A stretch of DNA of 64,000 nucleotides from Pelagerythrobacter aerophilus (GTDB taxonomy: Bacteria; Pseudomonadota; Alphaproteobacteria; Sphingomonadales; Sphingomonadaceae), in NCBI RefSeq assembly GCF_003581645.1, contig NZ_QXFK01000018.1:1-64000 (forward strand). Direction: 5' to 3'. Shown piece by piece: positions 28-9,442 of the stretch (position 1 is the stretch's first letter; each line of letters starts with the position of its first letter). The notes below the pieces were generated by a model. The model ran no database searches. It was not told the origin of the DNA and saw nothing but the letters and a program-made list of their open reading frames with translations. A program made the translations under genes and the position numbers.

Positions 28-94
28 TCACGGCATCTAGGTGCCAAGGTGTGAAGACCGTCAGGTATTCACGAGCAAAATGGGAGCCACCCAG

Positions 95-1129
95 ATGGAT
101 ATTAGCACGATCGGTCTCGATTTGGCCAAGAACGTTTTCCAGGTTCACGGCGTAGATGCACAGGGCACGGCCGTTGTTCGCAAGGCATTGCGGCGCTCGC
201 AGATGCTTCCCTTCTTCGAGAAGCTTCCGCCTTGCGTGGTTGGCATGGAGGCCTGCGGCACGTCGCATTACTGGGCTCGGGAGCTGATCAAGCTGGGCCA
301 TGAGGTTCGGCTGATGCCGCCGGCTTACGTCAAGCCCTACGTGAAGCGCGGCAAGACCGATGCTGCGGATGCGGAAGCAATCTGCGAGGCAGTGACGCGC
401 CCCACGATGCGCTTTGTGCCGGTGAAGTCAGCGGAGCAGCAGGCGGCGCTGTCGATGCACCGCACGCGGGATCTGTTCGTCAAGCAGCGCACGCAGCTAA
501 TCAACATGATGCGAGGGCTTTTGGCCGAGTTCGGCATCGACATCCCCCAAGGCATCAATCGAGCTTTGGAGAAGGCACGTGCGATCGTCGACGGGGAAGC
601 GCCTGACGTGCCGTCCGATGCTCTTCGCATCGTTGAGCGGCTGTCGCAGCAAGCCCTCGATGTCCACGCCCAGGTACGGGAGATCGAACGTGATCTGATC
701 GGGTGGCAGCGCAAGAGCGACGTTGCCACCCGCCTCATGACGATCCCGGGCATTGGCCCGATCGGAGCGACGGCACTCGCAGCGTCGGTCAGTGATCCAT
801 CTCAGTTCCGCTCTGGCCGGCAGTTCGCGGCCTGGCTGGGGCTAACCCCGCTTCAGAAGTCCAGCGGCGGCAAAGAGCGGCTCGGCCGCATCTCGAAGAT
901 GGGCGACAGGTATCTTCGTAAGCTCCTGGTGGTCGGCATGACGGCAGTGGTGCGGAACGCGAAAAGAAAACCGGAGGCGGTCGATCCCAACGTTCTCGCC
1001 TTGCTGGCGCGCAAGCCCGCACGGGTGGTCACCGTGGCTTTGGCAAACAAAACAGCGAGAATCGTCTGGGCCATCATGACCCGCGGGGAAGTCTATCGTG
1101 AGCGCCACGTGCCTGCGTTGGCGGCGTAG
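95..1129 (+). CDS. IS110-family transposase (DEDD recombinase)
   Basis: Transposase of the RNA-guided IS110 group, which inserts the element without a target duplication. From this start it is 344 aa, normal for the family. The N-terminal RuvC-like domain carries the DEDD set at D9 (GLDLAKN), E52 (GMEACG), D89 and D92 (KTDAADAE). The C-terminal Transposase_20 domain has the helix-hairpin-helix motif IPGIGPIGA and the serine-containing SSGGKERLG segment. The ATG at 95 matches the family start (M-x-I-x-x-I-G-L-D). An in-frame ATG at 80 and a GTG at 41 are possible, but they lie in the left-end region. The gene appears intact, so the element may be active. Confidence 0.92.
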   Translation: MDISTIGLDLAKNVFQVHGVDAQGTAVVRKALRRSQMLPFFEKLPPCVVGMEACGTSHYWARELIKLGHEVRLMPPAYVKPYVKRGKTDAADAEAICEAVTRPTMRFVPVKSAEQQAALSMHRTRDLFVKQRTQLINMMRGLLAEFGIDIPQGINRALEKARAIVDGEAPDVPSDALRIVERLSQQALDVHAQVREIERDLIGWQRKSDVATRLMTIPGIGPIGATALAASVSDPSQFRSGRQFAAWLGLTPLQKSSGGKERLGRISKMGDRYLRKLLVVGMTAVVRNAKRKPEAVDPNVLALLARKPARVVTVALANKTARIVWAIMTRGEVYRERHVPALAA

Positions 1130-2294: not shown

Positions 2295-2696
2295 CTATGG
2301 TCGCGCGGCCCTGTCGCGATAGAACTGAATGCCGAGTTGGAGGCTCTCGGCAATCCGATCGGCCTTGTCCTGGAAAGCTGCGGCAGCCGCAGGCGAGAGA
2401 AGGTCGTCGGTGGTTTCCCGCCACAGACCTAGCCAGCGCTCGAACGCTTCGCCGGTCATCGCAGTGTCGTGGCGGACGTGCGCCTGCATGGGATTCCCCT
2501 TGTAGCGGCCGCTGGTGAGCATGACCGAGGACCAGAAGGCCTTGAGCTTCTCCAGATGATGCGGCCAGTCGTCGATCGCGCCATTGAAGATGGGACCGAG
2601 CAGCGCATCCCGCCGAACACGAGCATAGAATTCCGGCACCAGCCGGTTGATGTCGTCTTCCGTGATGAGGGGATCGGTCAATTTAAGCGGCCTCAC
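2295..2696 (-). CDS. Group III truncated haemoglobin
   Basis: A 133-aa single-domain 2/2 globin of group III (Ctb/TrHb3). Family signs are the N-terminal ITEDDINRLVPEFYARVRRD, the central HLEKLKAFWSSVML, the NPMQAH segment with the likely proximal haem histidine, and FERWLGLWRET. Known members bind O2 or NO tightly and are linked to microaerobic or nitrosative stress. It starts with GTG at 2696, overlapping the end of the receiver gene by 14 bp, and is the last gene of an operon with alternative oxidase. No strong Shine-Dalgarno is visible, so translation is probably coupled. A role in O2/NO handling beside the oxidase is inferred. Confidence 0.88.
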   Translation of the reverse strand: MRPLKLTDPLITEDDINRLVPEFYARVRRDALLGPIFNGAIDDWPHHLEKLKAFWSSVMLTSGRYKGNPMQAHVRHDTAMTGEAFERWLGLWRETTDDLLSPAAAAAFQDKADRIAESLQLGIQFYRDRAARP

Positions 2697-3042
2697 AATG
2701 GTCGAGCGCTCCGCGCAAGGCGTGCGTCAGCTCTTCGCCGAAGAGCGGTTTTTCTATCACGACGGCGCCGGCGGCGCCGGCGCGGGTACGTGTGCTGGCG
2801 GTCGGGTTGGTCACCAGCAGGATTGCCGGCATCGCGTGCCCATCTTGCCGCAGTTCCGCGAGGAAGGCAGCGCCGTCCCCGCAGTAGCCCTGATCCACGA
2901 CCAGGCAACCGGCGGAGGAGACTTCGACCTCCTCCGCGGCGCCGTTTACGATGTCGAACCCTTCGAGCGCCAGCGCGAATTCGAGCGAGGACAGGACCGG
3001 ACGGTCGCCGATGAACAGCAGAATGGGCGATCGCGTGCTCAT
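2683..3042 (-). CDS. Orphan receiver-domain protein
   Basis: A 119-aa stand-alone response-regulator receiver with no output domain. The likely phospho-acceptor D50 (CLVVD), T78 and K98 (IEKPL) are present. The usual acidic pair near residue 12 is reduced to G-D (FIGD), so Mg2+ binding may be weakened. It resembles the FixJ receiver. The gene sits 28 bp after the oxidase gene and overlaps the globin gene. It could act as a phosphate sink or inhibitor for the FixL-like kinase encoded divergently, as FixT-type proteins inhibit FixL elsewhere, but it is not recognisably FixT. The function is unproven. Confidence 0.75.
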   Translation of the reverse strand: MSTRSPILLFIGDRPVLSSLEFALALEGFDIVNGAAEEVEVSSAGCLVVDQGYCGDGAAFLAELRQDGHAMPAILLVTNPTASTRTRAGAAGAVVIEKPLFGEELTHALRGALDHCEAA

Positions 3043-3070
3043 GTCCTGTCCTCGCAGTGGCCGCTTTCGA

Positions 3071-3760
3071 TCAGGCGGCCCGCTTCCAGTTCGGCTGCAG
3101 TTCGACGTGCGGCGGGCATTCGGCCACTGCGCCGACTGGCAACCCCGCGAGCTCGTTGGCAAAGCCATGGTTGACGTCGCGGTGATGCGCTTCGTCGGCG
3201 CGGACCACGAGCACCACGTCGCGGAGCGTCGCATCCTCGGGCAGGCCCCAGTAACGCTTGGCGATCTCCGGCGCCGGAATGTTCTCGCTGCGCCCCTCAT
3301 CGATTTCGGCGAGGTAGTGCGTGTAGCTGATCACCGCCTCTTCCTCGAAGTAGCCGACCACCCGGTGCGCCGTCTTCGAGCTGACGAGATAGAGCGCGAA
3401 GAAGAACAGGTAGAACACCCATTGCACGCCGATGATGACCGCCCGTTCGAACAGCGTCGGCTTGGAGACCTCGATGAAGGTCATCAGATGCATGCGCTCG
3501 TTCTCGGCCTCGTCCATGAGCGTCTTGATCCAGCCCCTGTCGTCGCACATGCGGCGCAGACAGGCGAGGTGGTTGATCGTCGCGCCGACCATGCCCGGCA
3601 CGGCGGCGACGGTCTCCAGCACGACGGCGCGATGACCGTAACGCTCGGCAAAGAACGTGTCGGCGCACCAGCGCAGCGCCTTGGTGAAGCCGAAGGCGAT
3701 CCGATCGGAGACCCCGCGGGGCTTGTGATGAATGCCGAGATCGATGAAGGGTGCGGTCAT
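3071..3760 (-). CDS. aox: Alternative oxidase (cyanide-insensitive quinol oxidase)
   Basis: A 229-aa di-iron ubiquinol:oxygen oxidoreductase of the inner-membrane surface that reduces O2 to water without pumping protons. All six expected iron ligands are present: E49 (LET), E88 and H91 (NERMH), E139 ([13 protein letters not shown]), E190 and H193 ([11 protein letters not shown]). Their spacing closely matches the trypanosome enzyme. A hydrophobic helical segment lies at about 108-128. The start is ATG 3760 with GGAG 6 nt upstream. It is the first gene of an operon with an orphan receiver and a truncated globin, and is divergent from fixL-fixJ. AOX is sporadic in bacteria but known in sphingomonads. 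Control by the adjacent FixLJ pair is inferred. Confidence 0.95.
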
Positions 3761-3837
3761 TGAACTTCTCCACTTGGCGGCGCGATCCGTGCGCCGGAAG
3801 TACGCCCCATCTACGGAGCCGAAGGGAGCCGCGAAAT
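3761..3837. promoter_or_regulatory. Shared divergent promoter region of aox and fixL
   Basis: About 77 bp separate the two start codons if fixL begins at TTG 3838. CGTA-containing half-sites occur at 3800-3804 (GTACG) and 3811-3815 (CTACG). They loosely resemble FixJ recognition elements, but this is weak. No FNR/FixK-type box (TTGAT-N4-ATCAA) was seen. Confidence 0.3.
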
Positions 3838-5385
3838 TTGGATGATCTCCCTAACCTCAGGTCCCTAAGGGCTTTACCGGAGGTGGCCCGGGCGGCCTTT
3901 ACCAGCCGCTTCCTTCCGCGCCTGTCGGTTCCGACTGCGCTGATGCTGGCCGTGCTCGCTATCGCGGCCGGAGCGGCGGTCCGTCTGCTGTTCGCCGAAG
4001 AGCTGGGGCAGCGGGCCACGTTCATCTTCTTCGTGCCGGGGGTGGTCGTGGCAAGCGCGCTTTCGGGTCTTCGCGCCGGCGGGCTGGCCGCACTCGGTGG
4101 CGCGGCAGCAGGTCTGTGGTGCGAGCGGATGACGGCCCCTCTCGAAAGCGGCAGCCTGATCGCGGCCGGTGCCTTCGTGCTCTTCGGCCTTGCCATTGCG
4201 CTTGGCGGTGAGTGGTTCCAGCGCGCGCGGGTCGAGACCGAGGCCGCCGCCGCGGGCCTCGCACGGCGCGAGGCGCACCTGCGGTCGATCCTCGAGACGG
4301 TACCCGACGCCATGGTGGTGATCGACGAACGCGGCCTGATCCGCGACTTCAGCCACGCTGCGGAACGGATGTTCGGCTGGACCGCCGGCGAAGTCGCGGG
4401 CCGCAACGTACAGCTTCTCATGCCCGAGCCCTACCGCAGCGCGCACGACGGTTATCTCGATCGCTACTACCGTACTGGCGAGAAACGGATCATCGGCAAG
4501 GGACGCGTTGTCGTGGGAGAGCGCAAGGACGGCTCGACCTTTCCGATCGAACTGGCGGTCGGCGAGATGAGCGCCGAGGGACAGCGCTTCTTCACAGGCT
4601 TTATCCGCGATCTGACCGAGCGCCAGCAGGCCGAGGCGCGGCTGCAGGAACTGCAGAACGAACTCGTTCACGTCTCGCGCCTGACCGCGCTCGGGGAGAT
4701 GGCTTCGGCGCTCGCGCACGAAATCAACCAGCCGCTCTCGGCGATCGCCAACTACCTCAAAGGCAGCCGCATGCTGCTTGCCCGGCCCGACGTGCCGCAC
4801 GAGCGGGTCGCAGACGCGGTAGACAAGGCGGCGACCGAGGCGCTCCGCGCCGGCGACATCATTCGCCGCTTGCGCGAGTTCGTCGCGCGCGGCGAGATCG
4901 AGCGCTCGGTCGAAAGCCTGCCCAAGCTGGTCGAGGAAGCGAGCGCGCTGGCACTGGTCGGCGCCAAGGAGCACGGCATTCGCGTGCGATATGCGTTCAG
5001 CCCCGACGTGGATCTCGTCCTGGCCGACAAAGTGCAAATCCAGCAAGTGGTGCTCAACCTGGTGCGCAACGCGGTCGATGCGCTGGCAGAGTCCGGCTCC
5101 GACCAGCGCGAGCTTGCCATTTCCATCGAGCCGGTGGACGACGGGATGGCACAAGTGACAGTCGCGGACAGCGGCCATGGAATCGCCCCGGAGGTTGCCG
5201 AACGGCTGTTCCAGCCCTTCATCACGACCAAGCGCGCGGGTATGGGGGTGGGCCTGTCGATCTCGCGCACGATCGTCGAAGCGCACGGTGGCCGCATCTG
5301 GGGGCAGCCGCGCGCAGGCGGCGGCGCGCTGTTCGGCTTTACCGTGCAGCGGGTCGGAAAGGAGGAGCTCTACGATGCCGAGTGA
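3838..5385 (+). CDS. fixL: FixL-like oxygen-sensing histidine kinase
   Basis: A 515-aa membrane kinase. Residues 25-130 form about four helices resembling a DUF4118/MASE-type domain. The PAS domain (about 145-255) closely follows rhizobial FixL: His203 (RSAHDGYL) matches the haem-ligating histidine, and the arginine of [10 protein letters not shown] matches the FixL arginine that senses bound O2. HisKA follows with H294 ([17 protein letters not shown]), then HATPase_c with the N box ([10 protein letters not shown]) and DSGHGI. The ORF extends to an ATG at 3751, but that overlaps the divergent oxidase start; TTG 3838 has AAGGGAG 9 nt upstream and is preferred. It overlaps fixJ by 11 bp. Haem binding is inferred from these residues. 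Confidence 0.88.
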
Positions 5386-5986
5386 GCCGATCGTCTATGT
5401 GATCGACGACGACGAGAGTGCCCGCGATTCGCTGGAGTTCCTGCTCGACGTCTCTGGGATCAGAGTGCGTTCGTTCGCTTCGGCCGATGCCTTTCTCAAG
5501 TCCTCCCCGCCGCTGGCCGGTGCGTGCATCGTCACCGATGTGCGCATGCCCGGACGTAGCGGGGTCGAACTGGTTCAGGAGTTGAAGGAGCGTGGCGCCT
5601 CGGTGCCCGTGATCGTCATGACCGGACATGCCGACGTACCGCTGGCGATCCAGGCGATGAAAGCGGGCGTGACGGACTTCATCGAAAAACCGTTCGACGA
5701 CGTGACGATGCTGGCGGCGATCCGCGGCGCTCTGGCCCAGCAAGCGGGCGAGGACCACGCGCAAGCGGAGCGGCAGCAGATACTCGATCGCATGGCCACG
5801 CTGTCCCCGCGCGAACGCGAGGTCATGGATGGGCTGGTCGCGGGCCAGGCAAACAAGGCGATCGCGTTCGATCTCGATATCAGCGCGCGCACGGTCGAAG
5901 TCTACCGCGCCAACGCGATGATGAAGATGCAGGCCAGAACCTTGTCCGATCTCGTGCGCATGGTGACAGTCGCACGGCTGGCCTGA
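5375..5986 (+). CDS. fixJ: FixJ-like response regulator
   Basis: A 203-aa two-domain regulator, partner of the upstream kinase. The receiver has D11-D13, phospho-acceptor D55 ([12 protein letters not shown]), T83 and K105 (IEKPF). The LuxR/GerE HTH (about 140-200) contains [25 protein letters not shown] and [14 protein letters not shown], typical of FixJ. The start ATG 5375 lies inside the end of fixL after GGAGGAGC, indicating translational coupling. In rhizobia FixJ activates microaerobic genes; here the nearest target is the divergent oxidase/globin operon, which is an inference. Confidence 0.92.
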
Positions 5987-6078
5987 GGCCGAATCCGGCG
6001 CGAACCGTTGGGATGATTCCGGCGTTCAGCTTGCACGCCTAGCTGGGTCTCCTGCCGCCCCAGCCCAGGCTCGTCCGA

Positions 6079-7449
6079 TCATCGAGAGGCCTTTTGCAGG
6101 TTCATGTCCTCTAGCGCGATGCCGTTGGTTTCGGGCATCTTCTTCCAGGCCCAGAGAAACTGCAGCAGCATCATCGCGCCGAAGAAGGCGAACACCCATC
6201 CGCCCAGGCGGGTGGCGAACACCGGGAAGGCCCAGGTGATCGCGGCCGCCATCACCCAGTGAACGGTGCTGCCGAGCGCCTGCCCCTTGCCCCGGACGGC
6301 GCTCGGGAAGATTTCGGAGATGAAGACCCAGATCACAGCGCCTTGGGAAAGTGCGAAAGCTGCTATGAAGCCCAGCAGGCCGATCAGCACGATAGTGCCG
6401 TCCGGCCGCGCACTCTCGAACTGCCACGCGACGACGAACAGCGCGGCCGCGGTGGCGATCGATCCGAAGAGGAGCAGAGGCCGCCGGCCAAAGTGGTCGA
6501 TCAGGAACAGCGCGGCGACCGTGAACACGAGATTCGTACCCCCGATGGCAATCGACTGCAGCAATGCGCCATCCGCTGCCGCCCCGCTCAACTCGAAGAT
6601 ATGTGGCGCGTAGTAGAGCAGTGCGTTGATGCCCGAGAGCTGGTTGAACATCGCGATCGCGATTGCGCAGGCCACGGGAAAGGAATGGGCGCGGCTGAAC
6701 AGCCGGGGCTGCGCCCGCGTCGCGTCGAGCTCGCGCGCCGCCGCCTCCCGCATGCGGCGTACATCACTGGCCGGATCAGCGAATCCGAGCCGCTCCATGA
6801 CCGTGAGCGCACGGGCATCACGACCGGCCGCGACGAGCCAGCGGGGGCTCTCGGGCAGCACCAGCGTCACCATCAGGAACAGCGCAGACGGTAGGGTGAC
6901 AATGCCGAACATCCATCGCCATGCGGTGTCCGGCGGAAATAGCCCGGCGATGACGTAGTTCGAAATGAACGCCAGCAGGATGCCGAAGACGATGTTGAGC
7001 TGGTTGAGCGCCACCAGGCGCCCGCGCACATGAGCGGGCGACACTTCGGCAATGTAGATAGGCGTGATGACCGATGCCGCGCCGATCGCCAGTCCGGCGA
7101 GGAGGCGGAAGGCGAGGAAGACCGCCCAGCTCTCGGCCAGTGCCGATCCGAGCGAGGAGACGACATAGGCGATGGCGACCGAGAGTAGCACGGCCTTGCG
7201 GCCGAAGCGGTCCGACGGCCAGCCGGCGACGAGCGAGCCCACGATCGTGCCGATCAGCGCCGAAGCCACGGTGAAGCCAAGCTGCGCGTCGCTGAGCGCA
7301 AAACGCTCCTGGAGCGCGGAGGTCGTGCCGGAAATCACCGCCGTGTCGAGCCCGAACAGCAGACCGCCGAGCGCCGCGCCGGCCGCAGTCAGGATCATGA
7401 TTGCGGTGAGGCGCCCTTGCGCCGGCGATGCGAAGTGCGTGTTGCTCAT
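6079..7449 (-). CDS. MFS sugar porter (sugar:H+ symporter)
   Basis: A 456-aa, 12-helix inner-membrane symporter of the XylE/GalP/AraE type. Sugar-porter marks are LFGLDTAVISG in helix 1, the D-R-F-G-R-K loop at about 80-85, PESPRWL after helix 6, and FGRRP in the second half. It starts 4 bp after the stop of the GH127 gene and is surely co-transcribed with it, so the likely substrate is L-arabinose or a related monosaccharide released by that enzyme (inferred). It converges with fixJ across a 92-bp gap (5987-6078) in which I see no clear terminator. Confidence 0.9.
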   Translation of the reverse strand: MSNTHFASPAQGRLTAIMILTAAGAALGGLLFGLDTAVISGTTSALQERFALSDAQLGFTVASALIGTIVGSLVAGWPSDRFGRKAVLLSVAIAYVVSSLGSALAESWAVFLAFRLLAGLAIGAASVITPIYIAEVSPAHVRGRLVALNQLNIVFGILLAFISNYVIAGLFPPDTAWRWMFGIVTLPSALFLMVTLVLPESPRWLVAAGRDARALTVMERLGFADPASDVRRMREAAARELDATRAQPRLFSRAHSFPVACAIAIAMFNQLSGINALLYYAPHIFELSGAAADGALLQSIAIGGTNLVFTVAALFLIDHFGRRPLLLFGSIATAAALFVVAWQFESARPDGTIVLIGLLGFIAAFALSQGAVIWVFISEIFPSAVRGKGQALGSTVHWVMAAAITWAFPVFATRLGGWVFAFFGAMMLLQFLWAWKKMPETNGIALEDMNLQKASR

Positions 7450-7453
7450 GGGA

Positions 7454-9442
7454 TCAGGCCTTCACGATCGGGAATTCGGACATGCGGAGTAGCGTGCATC
7501 CGTATGGAACGAGCCGCAGCGTCTCGGCCGGCGCATCGGTCGACACCGGGCTGAACGGCAAGGAGCCATGGGTCTGGTGGTATCGATCCCATCCCGGAAT
7601 CCTGCGTCCGGTGGTGCTCAGGCTGAACGGCGCGTTGGCGTCGATCCACGGACAGTCCGAAACGGCAGCGGCACGATCGAGACTGACGGCGGCTCCGGGT
7701 TCCAGCGCGTAGTTCCATGGCGTCGTCGGAAAGACCTCAGAGGTGGCGATGCCGCTCCGTTCACCGATCTTGTGCCATTCCTCGCCTATCGGAAGGGCGA
7801 ATACCAGGGGGCCGCGTTCCAGGCTGACGAGCTGCTTGTGCCACATGCTGCGCGTGATCTTCGCCGGGAAGATCAGCTCCACGGTATCGCCCGTGCGCCA
7901 GACGCGCTCGAGTCTCGCGATCCGTCCGGAGGAGACGGGCGTCTCATCCTGGCCGTTTATCTTGATCGTCGCTCCCTCGGCCCAGCCCGGAATGCGAAGG
8001 TGAAGCGGAAAGGCCATCGGCCGGGCGGTTTGGAGTACGATCCGAACGCCGTCTTCGAACGGGTAGGAGGTCTGCTGTTCTGCCTGGACCTCGACACCGC
8101 CGATAGTGACGCGCGCGTTGCTGGGGCCGTAGTTTAGCACCGCCAGTCCGCCGTCCGCGCTCGCCGCCCACATGGATTGGACGAACTTGGGCCAGCCCTG
8201 ATGCATATTGACGGTGCAGCACGGGTAACCATCCAACAGACCGATCAGTTGGGAGGTGCCGCCATGCTGCTGCGCATACTGCTCGACATCGCGGCTGATC
8301 ATCACCTGATTGGGCTGCTGGAAGTACTGCCGCGCCATGTAGTCTTCGGTCGTTTGCGCAGGCAGCGCATTGTAGGCGATACGTTCCAAGCGATCGAGAA
8401 CAGCCACGTCGCCGGTGATCTGGCCGAGCGCTTCCAGTGAGAACATGAACTCCACCACGGTGCAGAGTTCGGTGCCTTGGATCGGGTTGGTACCGTGGAG
8501 CGGCTCATCGCCCGAGAACATTCCCGTGACCTGACCGTGATCGCGCTCGAGAAACGCCAGACCGTGGCGGATCGCATCGATGTGCTCCGAGCGACCATCA
8601 AGAAGATAAGCCAGCGCGGGCTGCTTCACGCCCATGGCCACGTTGACCCCGTGCGCGGTCGGCGGCTGCTCTGCGGCGAAGCCGGCGGTCCAGTCGCTCG
8701 TCTGGCCTACGAGGGTGCGGGCCAGCTCGAGCAGCGACCGCTCGCCCGTCCGATTGTACAGCCAGAGCGCACTTGCGGTGTTTTCGCCACCGCGATGCCG
8801 CGCCCATTCGGTCCAGTGGTCGAGCGGCTGGGTCGGGAGCTGCCGCTGCTGGTACGTGAAATAGCGCGACATGAAATCCAGTACCCGGCGATCCCCCGTA
8901 GCCTCGTGGTGCTGCTGGAGCACTTTGAGCATGACCATACGGGGCCACCAGTCCGCCGAGTTGGCTCGCTGGATTCCATTCTCGTCCTTGCCGGTTCCTC
9001 GATCATCAGGCGGGCCGAAATATCCGCTCGGCTGCTGACTGCGCAGAGCGAACTCGATCCACGGCTGGGCCTTGTCCTTGAGACGCTGGTTATCGAGGAT
9101 GTGAGCAAGGGGGACCAAGCCGTCGAGCCAGTATGGCCCTCGTTCCCAAGCGTCGCCCTCGCCCCCCAGCCACGCGTTCTGCGGGCCCACCAGCGAATAG
9201 AACTCGTCGAGGCGGCCGGTCAGCCCTTCCGCCATCGTCTCGAGTTGCATCGCAAGCCAGCCTTTTGCTCGCACGGCCCCCAGCGGCAGGGGAGCGAAAG
9301 GCTGATCCGCCAGAGGTGCCCGGTTGAATATCGCGCCGTTCACAGTGGCCACAGGCGCTCGATTCGTCCTGCCAAGCCCGGCAGCCGGCATCATCGCCAG
9401 GCCCACTGCGGCTCCTCCGACGAACTCTCGACGACTGACCAT
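7454..9442 (-). CDS. GH127-family glycosidase (probable beta-L-arabinofuranosidase)
   Basis: A 662-aa exported glycosidase of the former DUF1680 family. The N-terminus SRREFVGGAAVGLAMMPAAG is a Tat signal, implying export of a folded metalloprotein. The zinc/cysteine site of characterised GH127 enzymes is matched by E325 and C327 (ELC) and by C408-C409 (YPCC), with near-identical spacing; one of the paired cysteines is the nucleophile. The (alpha/alpha)6 barrel occupies most of the length, with a beta-sandwich C-terminus. Start ATG 9442 follows AGGAGGGG. It forms an operon with a sugar porter. The exact sugar is not proved; other DUF1680 branches (GH146-like) exist. Confidence 0.85.
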   Translation of the reverse strand: MVSRREFVGGAAVGLAMMPAAGLGRTNRAPVATVNGAIFNRAPLADQPFAPLPLGAVRAKGWLAMQLETMAEGLTGRLDEFYSLVGPQNAWLGGEGDAWERGPYWLDGLVPLAHILDNQRLKDKAQPWIEFALRSQQPSGYFGPPDDRGTGKDENGIQRANSADWWPRMVMLKVLQQHHEATGDRRVLDFMSRYFTYQQRQLPTQPLDHWTEWARHRGGENTASALWLYNRTGERSLLELARTLVGQTSDWTAGFAAEQPPTAHGVNVAMGVKQPALAYLLDGRSEHIDAIRHGLAFLERDHGQVTGMFSGDEPLHGTNPIQGTELCTVVEFMFSLEALGQITGDVAVLDRLERIAYNALPAQTTEDYMARQYFQQPNQVMISRDVEQYAQQHGGTSQLIGLLDGYPCCTVNMHQGWPKFVQSMWAASADGGLAVLNYGPSNARVTIGGVEVQAEQQTSYPFEDGVRIVLQTARPMAFPLHLRIPGWAEGATIKINGQDETPVSSGRIARLERVWRTGDTVELIFPAKITRSMWHKQLVSLERGPLVFALPIGEEWHKIGERSGIATSEVFPTTPWNYALEPGAAVSLDRAAAVSDCPWIDANAPFSLSTTGRRIPGWDRYHQTHGSLPFSPVSTDAPAETLRLVPYGCTLLRMSEFPIVKA

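Follow-up and report, generated by a model that had tools for sequence, protein, structure and literature searches.

Divergent linkage of a FixLJ haem sensor pair to alternative oxidase in Sphingomonadales and Caulobacterales, with a candidate FixJ box upstream of aox

The aox-fixLJ locus and its proteins

We analysed a 64,000-nucleotide stretch of DNA from Pelagerythrobacter aerophilus (contig NZ_QXFK01000018.1; hereafter the window), in which positions 2295-5986 hold a gene for alternative oxidase (AOX), aox, followed on the minus strand by genes for a receiver and a globin, with fixL and fixJ lying divergently on the plus strand (Table 1). FixLJ is a haem-based oxygen switch best known from nitrogen-fixing bacteria. 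A sequence-only reading of the window had placed these five genes in one 3.7-kb locus and had named the six iron ligands of AOX, the haem histidine and O2-sensing arginine of FixL and a group III globin, all of which were recovered in our analysis, as was the receiver in the aox operon, the type of which had been left unnamed and which is FixT-like here. The gap between aox and the receiver gene is 28 bases and the receiver and globin genes then overlap by 14 bases, which makes it likely that these three genes form one operon; fixL and fixJ also overlap.

The aox product matched Pfam PF01786 with 284 bits against a cut-off of 22.7, and the six residues that we take to be its iron ligands are invariant in 74/74 loci sharing the divergent fixLJ linkage (hereafter the linked loci). 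For FixL, the best NCBIfam model was that of FixL (NF041777) with 557.9 bits, under the cut-off of 850, and the match begins at the PAS domain. Residue counts for this domain cover 73 of the 74 linked loci, with one FixL omitted as too short, and, using what we take to be the equivalents of H200, R206 and R220 of B. japonicum FixL, the haem-ligand histidine and the Arg220 equivalent were each present in 73/73 and the Arg206 equivalent in 72/73. The PAS domains in the Protein Data Bank (PDB) matched by this protein are those of FixL structures, and its N-terminal region is hydrophobic by inspection and probably forms a membrane anchor. R206 and R220 of FixL are both named in PMC10765370.

FixJ scored 287.1 bits with NF006900, above the cut-off of 255, and its phospho-accepting aspartate is present in 74/74 relatives. 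The globin gave a Pfam Bac_globin match of 19.7 bits (E 0.00099), just below the cut-off of 21, and no NCBIfam match, and its best PDB match was the group III truncated haemoglobin 2ig3 (E 8e-15), with the next best at 0.007. Residues Y24, H47 and W88 of the globin are present in 43/43 relatives and H73 in 42/43, and these presumably act as the distal and proximal residues.

Table 1. Coordinates of the features of the aox-fixLJ locus in the window
Feature	Position	Strand	Details
Globin gene, end of the likely operon	2295..2696	-	GTG start; 14-base overlap with the end of the receiver gene
FixT-like single-domain receiver gene	2683..3042	-	119 amino acids; FixT is the best NCBIfam model
aox, first gene of the likely operon	3071..3760	-	Pfam PF01786, 284 bits
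TAGATG, candidate -10 element for aox	3808..3813	-	By inspection; 20 bases from CCAAATTT on the aox strand
Candidate FixJ box	3834..3883	-	Alignment; pattern and position weight matrix scans on relatives; CSNAATWT
fixL	about 3838..5385	+	Haem PAS, HisKA and HATPase domains; start is TTG 3838 or GTG 3883
fixJ	5375..5986	+	Response_reg and GerE (LuxR-type DNA-binding) domains; NF006900

Recurrence and phylogeny of the arrangement

A gene-neighbourhood survey of AOX in sphingomonads had been suggested by the sequence-only reading, and we examined the surroundings of all 39 aox genes present in 199 genomes of the window's family, 38 of which encode AOX. In 14/39 loci, from 12 genera, fixL and fixJ lie divergent from aox and a receiver gene, and 10 of these 14 also carry the globin gene. 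Only 21/199 family genomes have a FixJ that exceeds the curated cut-off, and all 14 linked genomes are among them. We also sampled 385 genomes of the class, in which AOX was detected in 41 genomes with 42 matches; three of these were already among the loci examined, and G289 and five fragments were left out, giving 33 new loci. Among these, only one has the fixLJ-aox arrangement (L113, in a genome of another family), with no receiver gene and with aox followed by hemN (5884-8053; hemN 350.7 bits, cut-off 325). Less than 2.6 kb was present on the divergent side of aox in 6 of the 71 survey loci, where a fixLJ pair may have escaped notice.

Among named genomes, we used the best 80 of 543 aox relatives with flanks of 5 kb, and found 60 loci with divergent fixLJ of the window's type, 15 without and 5 cut by contig ends; two of the 60 have less than 1.5 kb downstream of aox. 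These linked loci belong to Sphingomonadales and Caulobacterales, with Sphingomonas contributing 16, Sphingopyxis 11, Brevundimonas 5 and Phenylobacterium 5 of the 60. Recurrence on this scale in both the family and named sets argues that the unit is more than a chance assembly. Two fixLJ-aox loci each were seen in Brevundimonas alba (L203/L207), Sphingomonas turrisvirgatae (L204/L210) and Sphingomonas tagetis (L201/L213), and in genome G067 an AOX with fixLJ and the upstream element described below (L044) coexists with an AOX of a second type, which lies beside a globin gene and an NsrR-like gene (L038).

In an AOX tree of 72 rows, the 14 linked family sequences together with L113 form one clade (starred; 99/96). 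Likewise, in a FixL tree of 54 rows, built by a quick method with no bootstrap and drawing 14 sequences from the 60 named linked loci, a single clade unites the 29 linked FixLs with those of loci L096 and L097 and the second FixL of G473, and this clade is separate from the classic sphingomonad FixLs with a Shimodaira-Hasegawa-like approximate likelihood ratio test (SH-aLRT) value of 100. In L096, a FixK-type gene (232 bits, cut-off 300) lies divergent from fixL, fixJ and a receiver gene, so that in this related locus fixK takes the position that aox has in the linked loci; the genome concerned (G056) gave no AOX match. L097 has another Crp-type gene beside fixLJ.

Three further loci were considered and set aside. 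L195 (1861-5687), which has aox of the window's kind with divergent fixL-fixJ ~1 kb away, lacks the box and was classed as not linked, the pair having scores at the classic level (541 and 222 bits). L064 and L052, in which fixLJ lie near aox, were not counted, their AOXs being in another clade with no upstream box; the FixL of L064 groups with the classic FixLs and that of L052 is cut and lies outside the tree.

A conserved element upstream of aox

Aligning 14 aox-fixL intergenic regions revealed a conserved 50-bp element (the box), the blocks of which include AAATTTGG and CCTA. In the window it comprises CCAAATTT (3834-3841, aox strand), a CCTA repeat with a 14-base step and CGGAGG (3878-3883, plus strand), and it occupies bases 74-123 before the aox start. 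Among the 60 linked named loci, its near edge precedes the aox start by 53-94 bases (median 78; 74 in the window). By inspection, a long form has CCTA at a 14-base step before CGGAGG and a short form has one unit fewer. An exact 18-mer pattern has its sole match in the window's whole genome at 3836-3853, and when scanned against 16 whole genomes gave 17 matches in 15 of them (none in G128), with 0 for a reversed-pattern control. These 17 sites lie in aox-fixL or fixK-fixL intergenic regions, bar two beside fixJ in the same loci.

Second copies of the box precede other genes. In G013 the gene is that of a flavohaemoglobin of the nitric oxide (NO)-inducible type (NF009805, 557 bits against a cut-off of 432), which lies just after fixJ (L046 9039-10247 (+)), and in G126 it encodes a 143-amino-acid protein next to fixJ. 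This protein was seen behind a second box in two genomes of one genus (L048 8853-9281 (-) and L045 3284-3712 (+)), with one mismatch in one of the two box copies; it is membrane-like by inspection and gave no Pfam match (L048, L045) and no NCBIfam match (L048).

A weight matrix built from 27 distinct sites found the box in 60/60 linked named loci, 48 being exact matches and 12 others reaching p<=0.01. Because the 48 exact sites trained the matrix, the independent test lies in the 12 others, the loci that are not linked and the controls. The box was also found (p<=0.01) in 10/15 named loci without adjacent fixLJ of the window's type and 3/5 cut loci, and none of the 29 AOX genes from other clades has it at p<0.05. 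Its orientation is always the same in the positives shown. We considered whether the intergenic conservation might reflect fixL coding sequence, and rejected this because the box persists upstream of aox where fixL is not nearby and upstream of other genes, which indicates that it serves aox.

In L096 the box also lies in the fixK-fixL intergenic region (p 0.003), and across 16 genomes of the class it is upstream of 6/20 fixK-type genes (p<0.05), all in the same orientation; G473 has it at both aox and a fixK. A CSNAATWT motif has been reported for fixK promoters at -33 (PMC4999443), and the window box holds this motif as CCAAATTT. Upstream of aox, CSNAATWT occurs in 35 of the 60 linked loci, 5 of the 15 that are not linked and 1 of the 5 cut by contig ends, and in none of the 29 controls. 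In 17 classic fixLJ loci (L283-L299), which were chosen for their receiver-profile matches, there was no high box score upstream of fixL; scores without p-values were 11.3 at the fixL-fixJ junction of L297 and 12.1 several kb away in L294.

Candidate regulation of aox by FixLJ

We consider it probable, from gene order, conserved residues and the distribution of the box, that this locus is a FixLJ regulatory unit with AOX as its output, in which low O2 would lead FixJ to activate aox directly, subject to FixT-like feedback. The haem-PAS kinase FixL, probably membrane-anchored, would be on when its haem is free of O2 and would then phosphorylate FixJ, and phosphorylated FixJ would bind the box and activate aox, the fixT-like gene and the globin gene together. 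AOX would be a non-pumping route for electrons from quinol to O2, and FixL would be damped by the FixT-like receiver. It is the chemistry of FixL that predicts activation at low O2. Control of a non-pumping oxidase by a FixLJ haem sensor had been put forward in the sequence-only reading, and it is supported by the divergent linkage conserved in two orders, by the clade-specific aox box shared with some fixK promoters and by the conserved haem and diiron residues. A unit of this kind was not known to that reading as described, and we found no description of FixLJ-AOX wiring in searches of one library of open-licence papers covering AOX with FixLJ, globins, NsrR or sphingomonads, and AOX regulation. 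If the proposal is correct, bacterial AOX would gain an O2-sensing two-component regulator of known biochemistry, FixLJ would be seen to control a terminal oxidase directly, with no FixK in between, and the strong response of aox to anoxia and to NO in Sphingopyxis granuli TFA would have a named candidate for its regulator. The predicted box makes FixJ control of aox testable.

The unit resembles the FixL-FixJ-FixK-FixT system of Caulobacter crescentus and Sinorhizobium meliloti in its haem-PAS kinase, FixJ and FixT-like receiver, and in the fixK beside fixL with the same box (L096) and the hemN after aox (L113) of its relatives. However, the divergent gene is aox instead of fixK, the FixT-like gene lies inside the aox operon, the four-cysteine motif of Caulobacter is not seen, and the window's genome has no ccoN (cbb3 oxidase) over the curated cut-off. 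This genome encodes one FixJ (E up to 1e-60), one AOX, one bd oxidase subunit I over cut-off and three haem-copper oxidase subunit I genes. The third haem-copper oxidase-like protein (L302, G000 contig 15) has 540 amino acids and scores 263 of 583 bits, and is distant from cbb3. Across the 14 linked family genomes, ccoN was over cut-off in 6 and not in 8, and FixLJ is therefore kept without a recognised cbb3 oxidase in these 8. In PMC4999443, covering 50 genomes, FixLJ was reported in Caulobacterales and Rhizobiales and only FnrN in Sphingomonadales, with fixK as the sole conserved FixJ target in Caulobacterales.

Several observations weigh against FixJ acting on aox through the box. There is no significant box in 5 of the 15 named loci without adjacent window-type fixLJ, in 14/20 fixK upstream regions or in L097, and CSNAATWT was found in only 4/20 fixK regions. 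The box is identical to the S. meliloti FixJ 16-mer (PMC4999443) at 8/16 positions, which 2639/5000 shuffles also reach. A scan allowing one mismatch in five genomes gave 31 matches against 12 for the control, which makes further box sites possible; the 31 comprise 6 exact matches, one in G184 that is the counterpart of the second G126 site, and 24 others. The receiver gene, present in 14/14 linked family loci, was found in 43/60 and not found in 17/60 named linked loci, and the globin gene was present in 34/60 and not found in 26/60, and we therefore regard both as optional parts. Finally, the anaerobic induction of aox in S. granuli TFA is lost in an fnrN-fixK double mutant (PMC7713065). This last result and the poor likeness to the S. 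meliloti 16-mer would also fit a different account, in which the adjacency of fixLJ is incidental and another regulator (of FnrN/FixK type, RegBA or a NO sensor) controls aox via the box, and RegBA has been suggested as a further anaerobic regulator in this strain (PMC7713065). We think this improbable, as within the 16 whole genomes the exact box occurs only at fixLJ-associated loci, the box is present at some fixK promoters and absent from the AOX clade associated with Rrf2-family regulators, and CSNAATWT occurs in linked loci. Furthermore, the Fnr consensus (PMC4999443) is matched no better than in shuffles, with 7 specified bases upstream of the window aox, reached by 486/500 shuffles, and with only 4/60 linked loci beating 95/100 shuffles.

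A second alternative concerns the signal, and holds that the unit is primarily a NO defence switch, in which NO would displace O2 from the FixL haem and the kinase would stay largely on despite O2, with the NO-insensitive oxidase and a NO-handling globin made even when O2 is present. We offer this only tentatively, as a possibility. In S. granuli TFA, aox (SGRAN_1792) is reported to be 450-fold up in anaerobiosis with nitrate, 17-fold without nitrate and 70-fold with NO in anoxia, with NO induction in air too (PMC6472365), and S. granuli NBRC 100800, a different strain, has the fixLJ-aox unit and box (L166), with the receiver and globin genes not found at this locus. Anaerobic induction in TFA is also lost in a narG mutant (lower in narG), and the authors of PMC7713065 propose NO as the inducer and explain the loss of aox induction by lower NO; the mutant data would fit both an action of NO through FixLJ and a role of Fnr. 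The established role of FixL is that of an O2 sensor, which argues against NO as the primary signal, and it is inhibited less by NO than by O2 but is still inhibited by NO somewhat (PMC10765370).

The neighbours of related aox genes also bear on NO. When one to four neighbouring genes were scanned at each of 12 non-linked AOX loci, a globin-aox pair adjoined by a gene of the Rrf2 family was seen in 5/12 (L033, L038, L041, L062 and L125), all in the sister AOX clade of the 72-row tree. These pairs resemble the window in having aox with a related globin gene, but differ in their Rrf2-family regulator, in the lack of adjacent fixLJ and in the lack of a box. Two of the Rrf2 genes were compared with NCBIfam, where that of L038 had NsrR as best model and that of L041 had RirA, an iron regulator, as best and NsrR next, with all scores under cut-off. 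A gene for cytochrome c', a NO-binding type of protein, adjoins aox in L066, where the AOX is of another clade, and in G013 it is the NO-inducible flavohaemoglobin gene that the second box precedes; both would suit a NO switch. Control of aox by a gas-responsive regulator, with a NO-insensitive oxidase as output, is likewise described for the NsrR-controlled aox of Vibrio fischeri (via PMC6472365), although there a single NO-sensing regulator is described, in place of the FixLJ pair adjacent to aox here. Overall, a NO input to the unit is plausible. A wider scheme, possible but rather doubtful in our view, is that a FixLJ-FixT module changed its target from fixK to aox and serves as a switch for hypoxia and NO together, in the place that an Rrf2-family (NsrR/RirA-like) regulator has in the sister clade. 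In this scheme the weaker inhibition of FixL by NO than by O2 would be the signal to deploy the NO-insensitive oxidase and, in one lineage, flavohaemoglobin.

Within the proposed FixLJ-AOX unit, the receiver is probably a FixT-like feedback brake on FixL, as judged from its relatives and model matches. The window protein had no Pfam match at E 0.001, and with NCBIfam it matched FixT (NF051882; E 4.8e-9, 36.2 bits, under the 150-bit cut-off), with FixJ second (E 3.9e-6). Among NCBIfam models, FixT ranked first or was the only match for the receivers of the window, L043, L046 and L061, all below cut-off, and FixJ was best for the classic-locus receivers of L096, L239, L241, L246, L253 and L283. 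A profile of nine linked receivers, searched against the 199 family genomes, had as its top 15 matches the 14 linked genomes and G056 (L096), and the next tier of matches adjoins fixJ. A single receiver gene lies downstream of fixJ in 16/17 classic loci, with several scoring higher with a FixJ profile, and related receivers adjoin fixK in L239, L241 and L253. The Caulobacter FixT inhibits autophosphorylation of FixL, and its own phosphorylation was not observed (PMC7078487). We regard it as unlikely that the receiver instead serves as a sink for phosphate or as an output phosphorylated by FixL; the weak match to FixT would allow this, as would the aspartate at the phospho-accepting position in 49/56 receivers and the conserved lysine in 56/56, but the remaining 7/56 have glutamate at that position, the second acidic residue is absent in 32/56, and both the FixT best matches and the behaviour of FixT itself argue for an inhibitor. 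An iron-sulphur FixT of the Caulobacter type was considered and rejected on cysteine counts, as the four-cysteine motif is not general among the 56 receivers: 41 have 1-2 cysteines, 8 have 3, 4 have 4 and 3 have none, with CxxC in 3. This motif is described as absent outside Caulobacter (PMC7078487).

Near the downstream side of the aox-fixLJ unit, the window carries an IS110-family transposase gene (41-1129 (+), 364 bits), with an ArsR-type regulator gene and an AHSA1-type gene between the two. On the other side, genes for a sugar porter of the major facilitator superfamily and a GH127-type beta-L-arabinofuranosidase (6079-9442 (-)) adjoin the unit and are probably unrelated to it.

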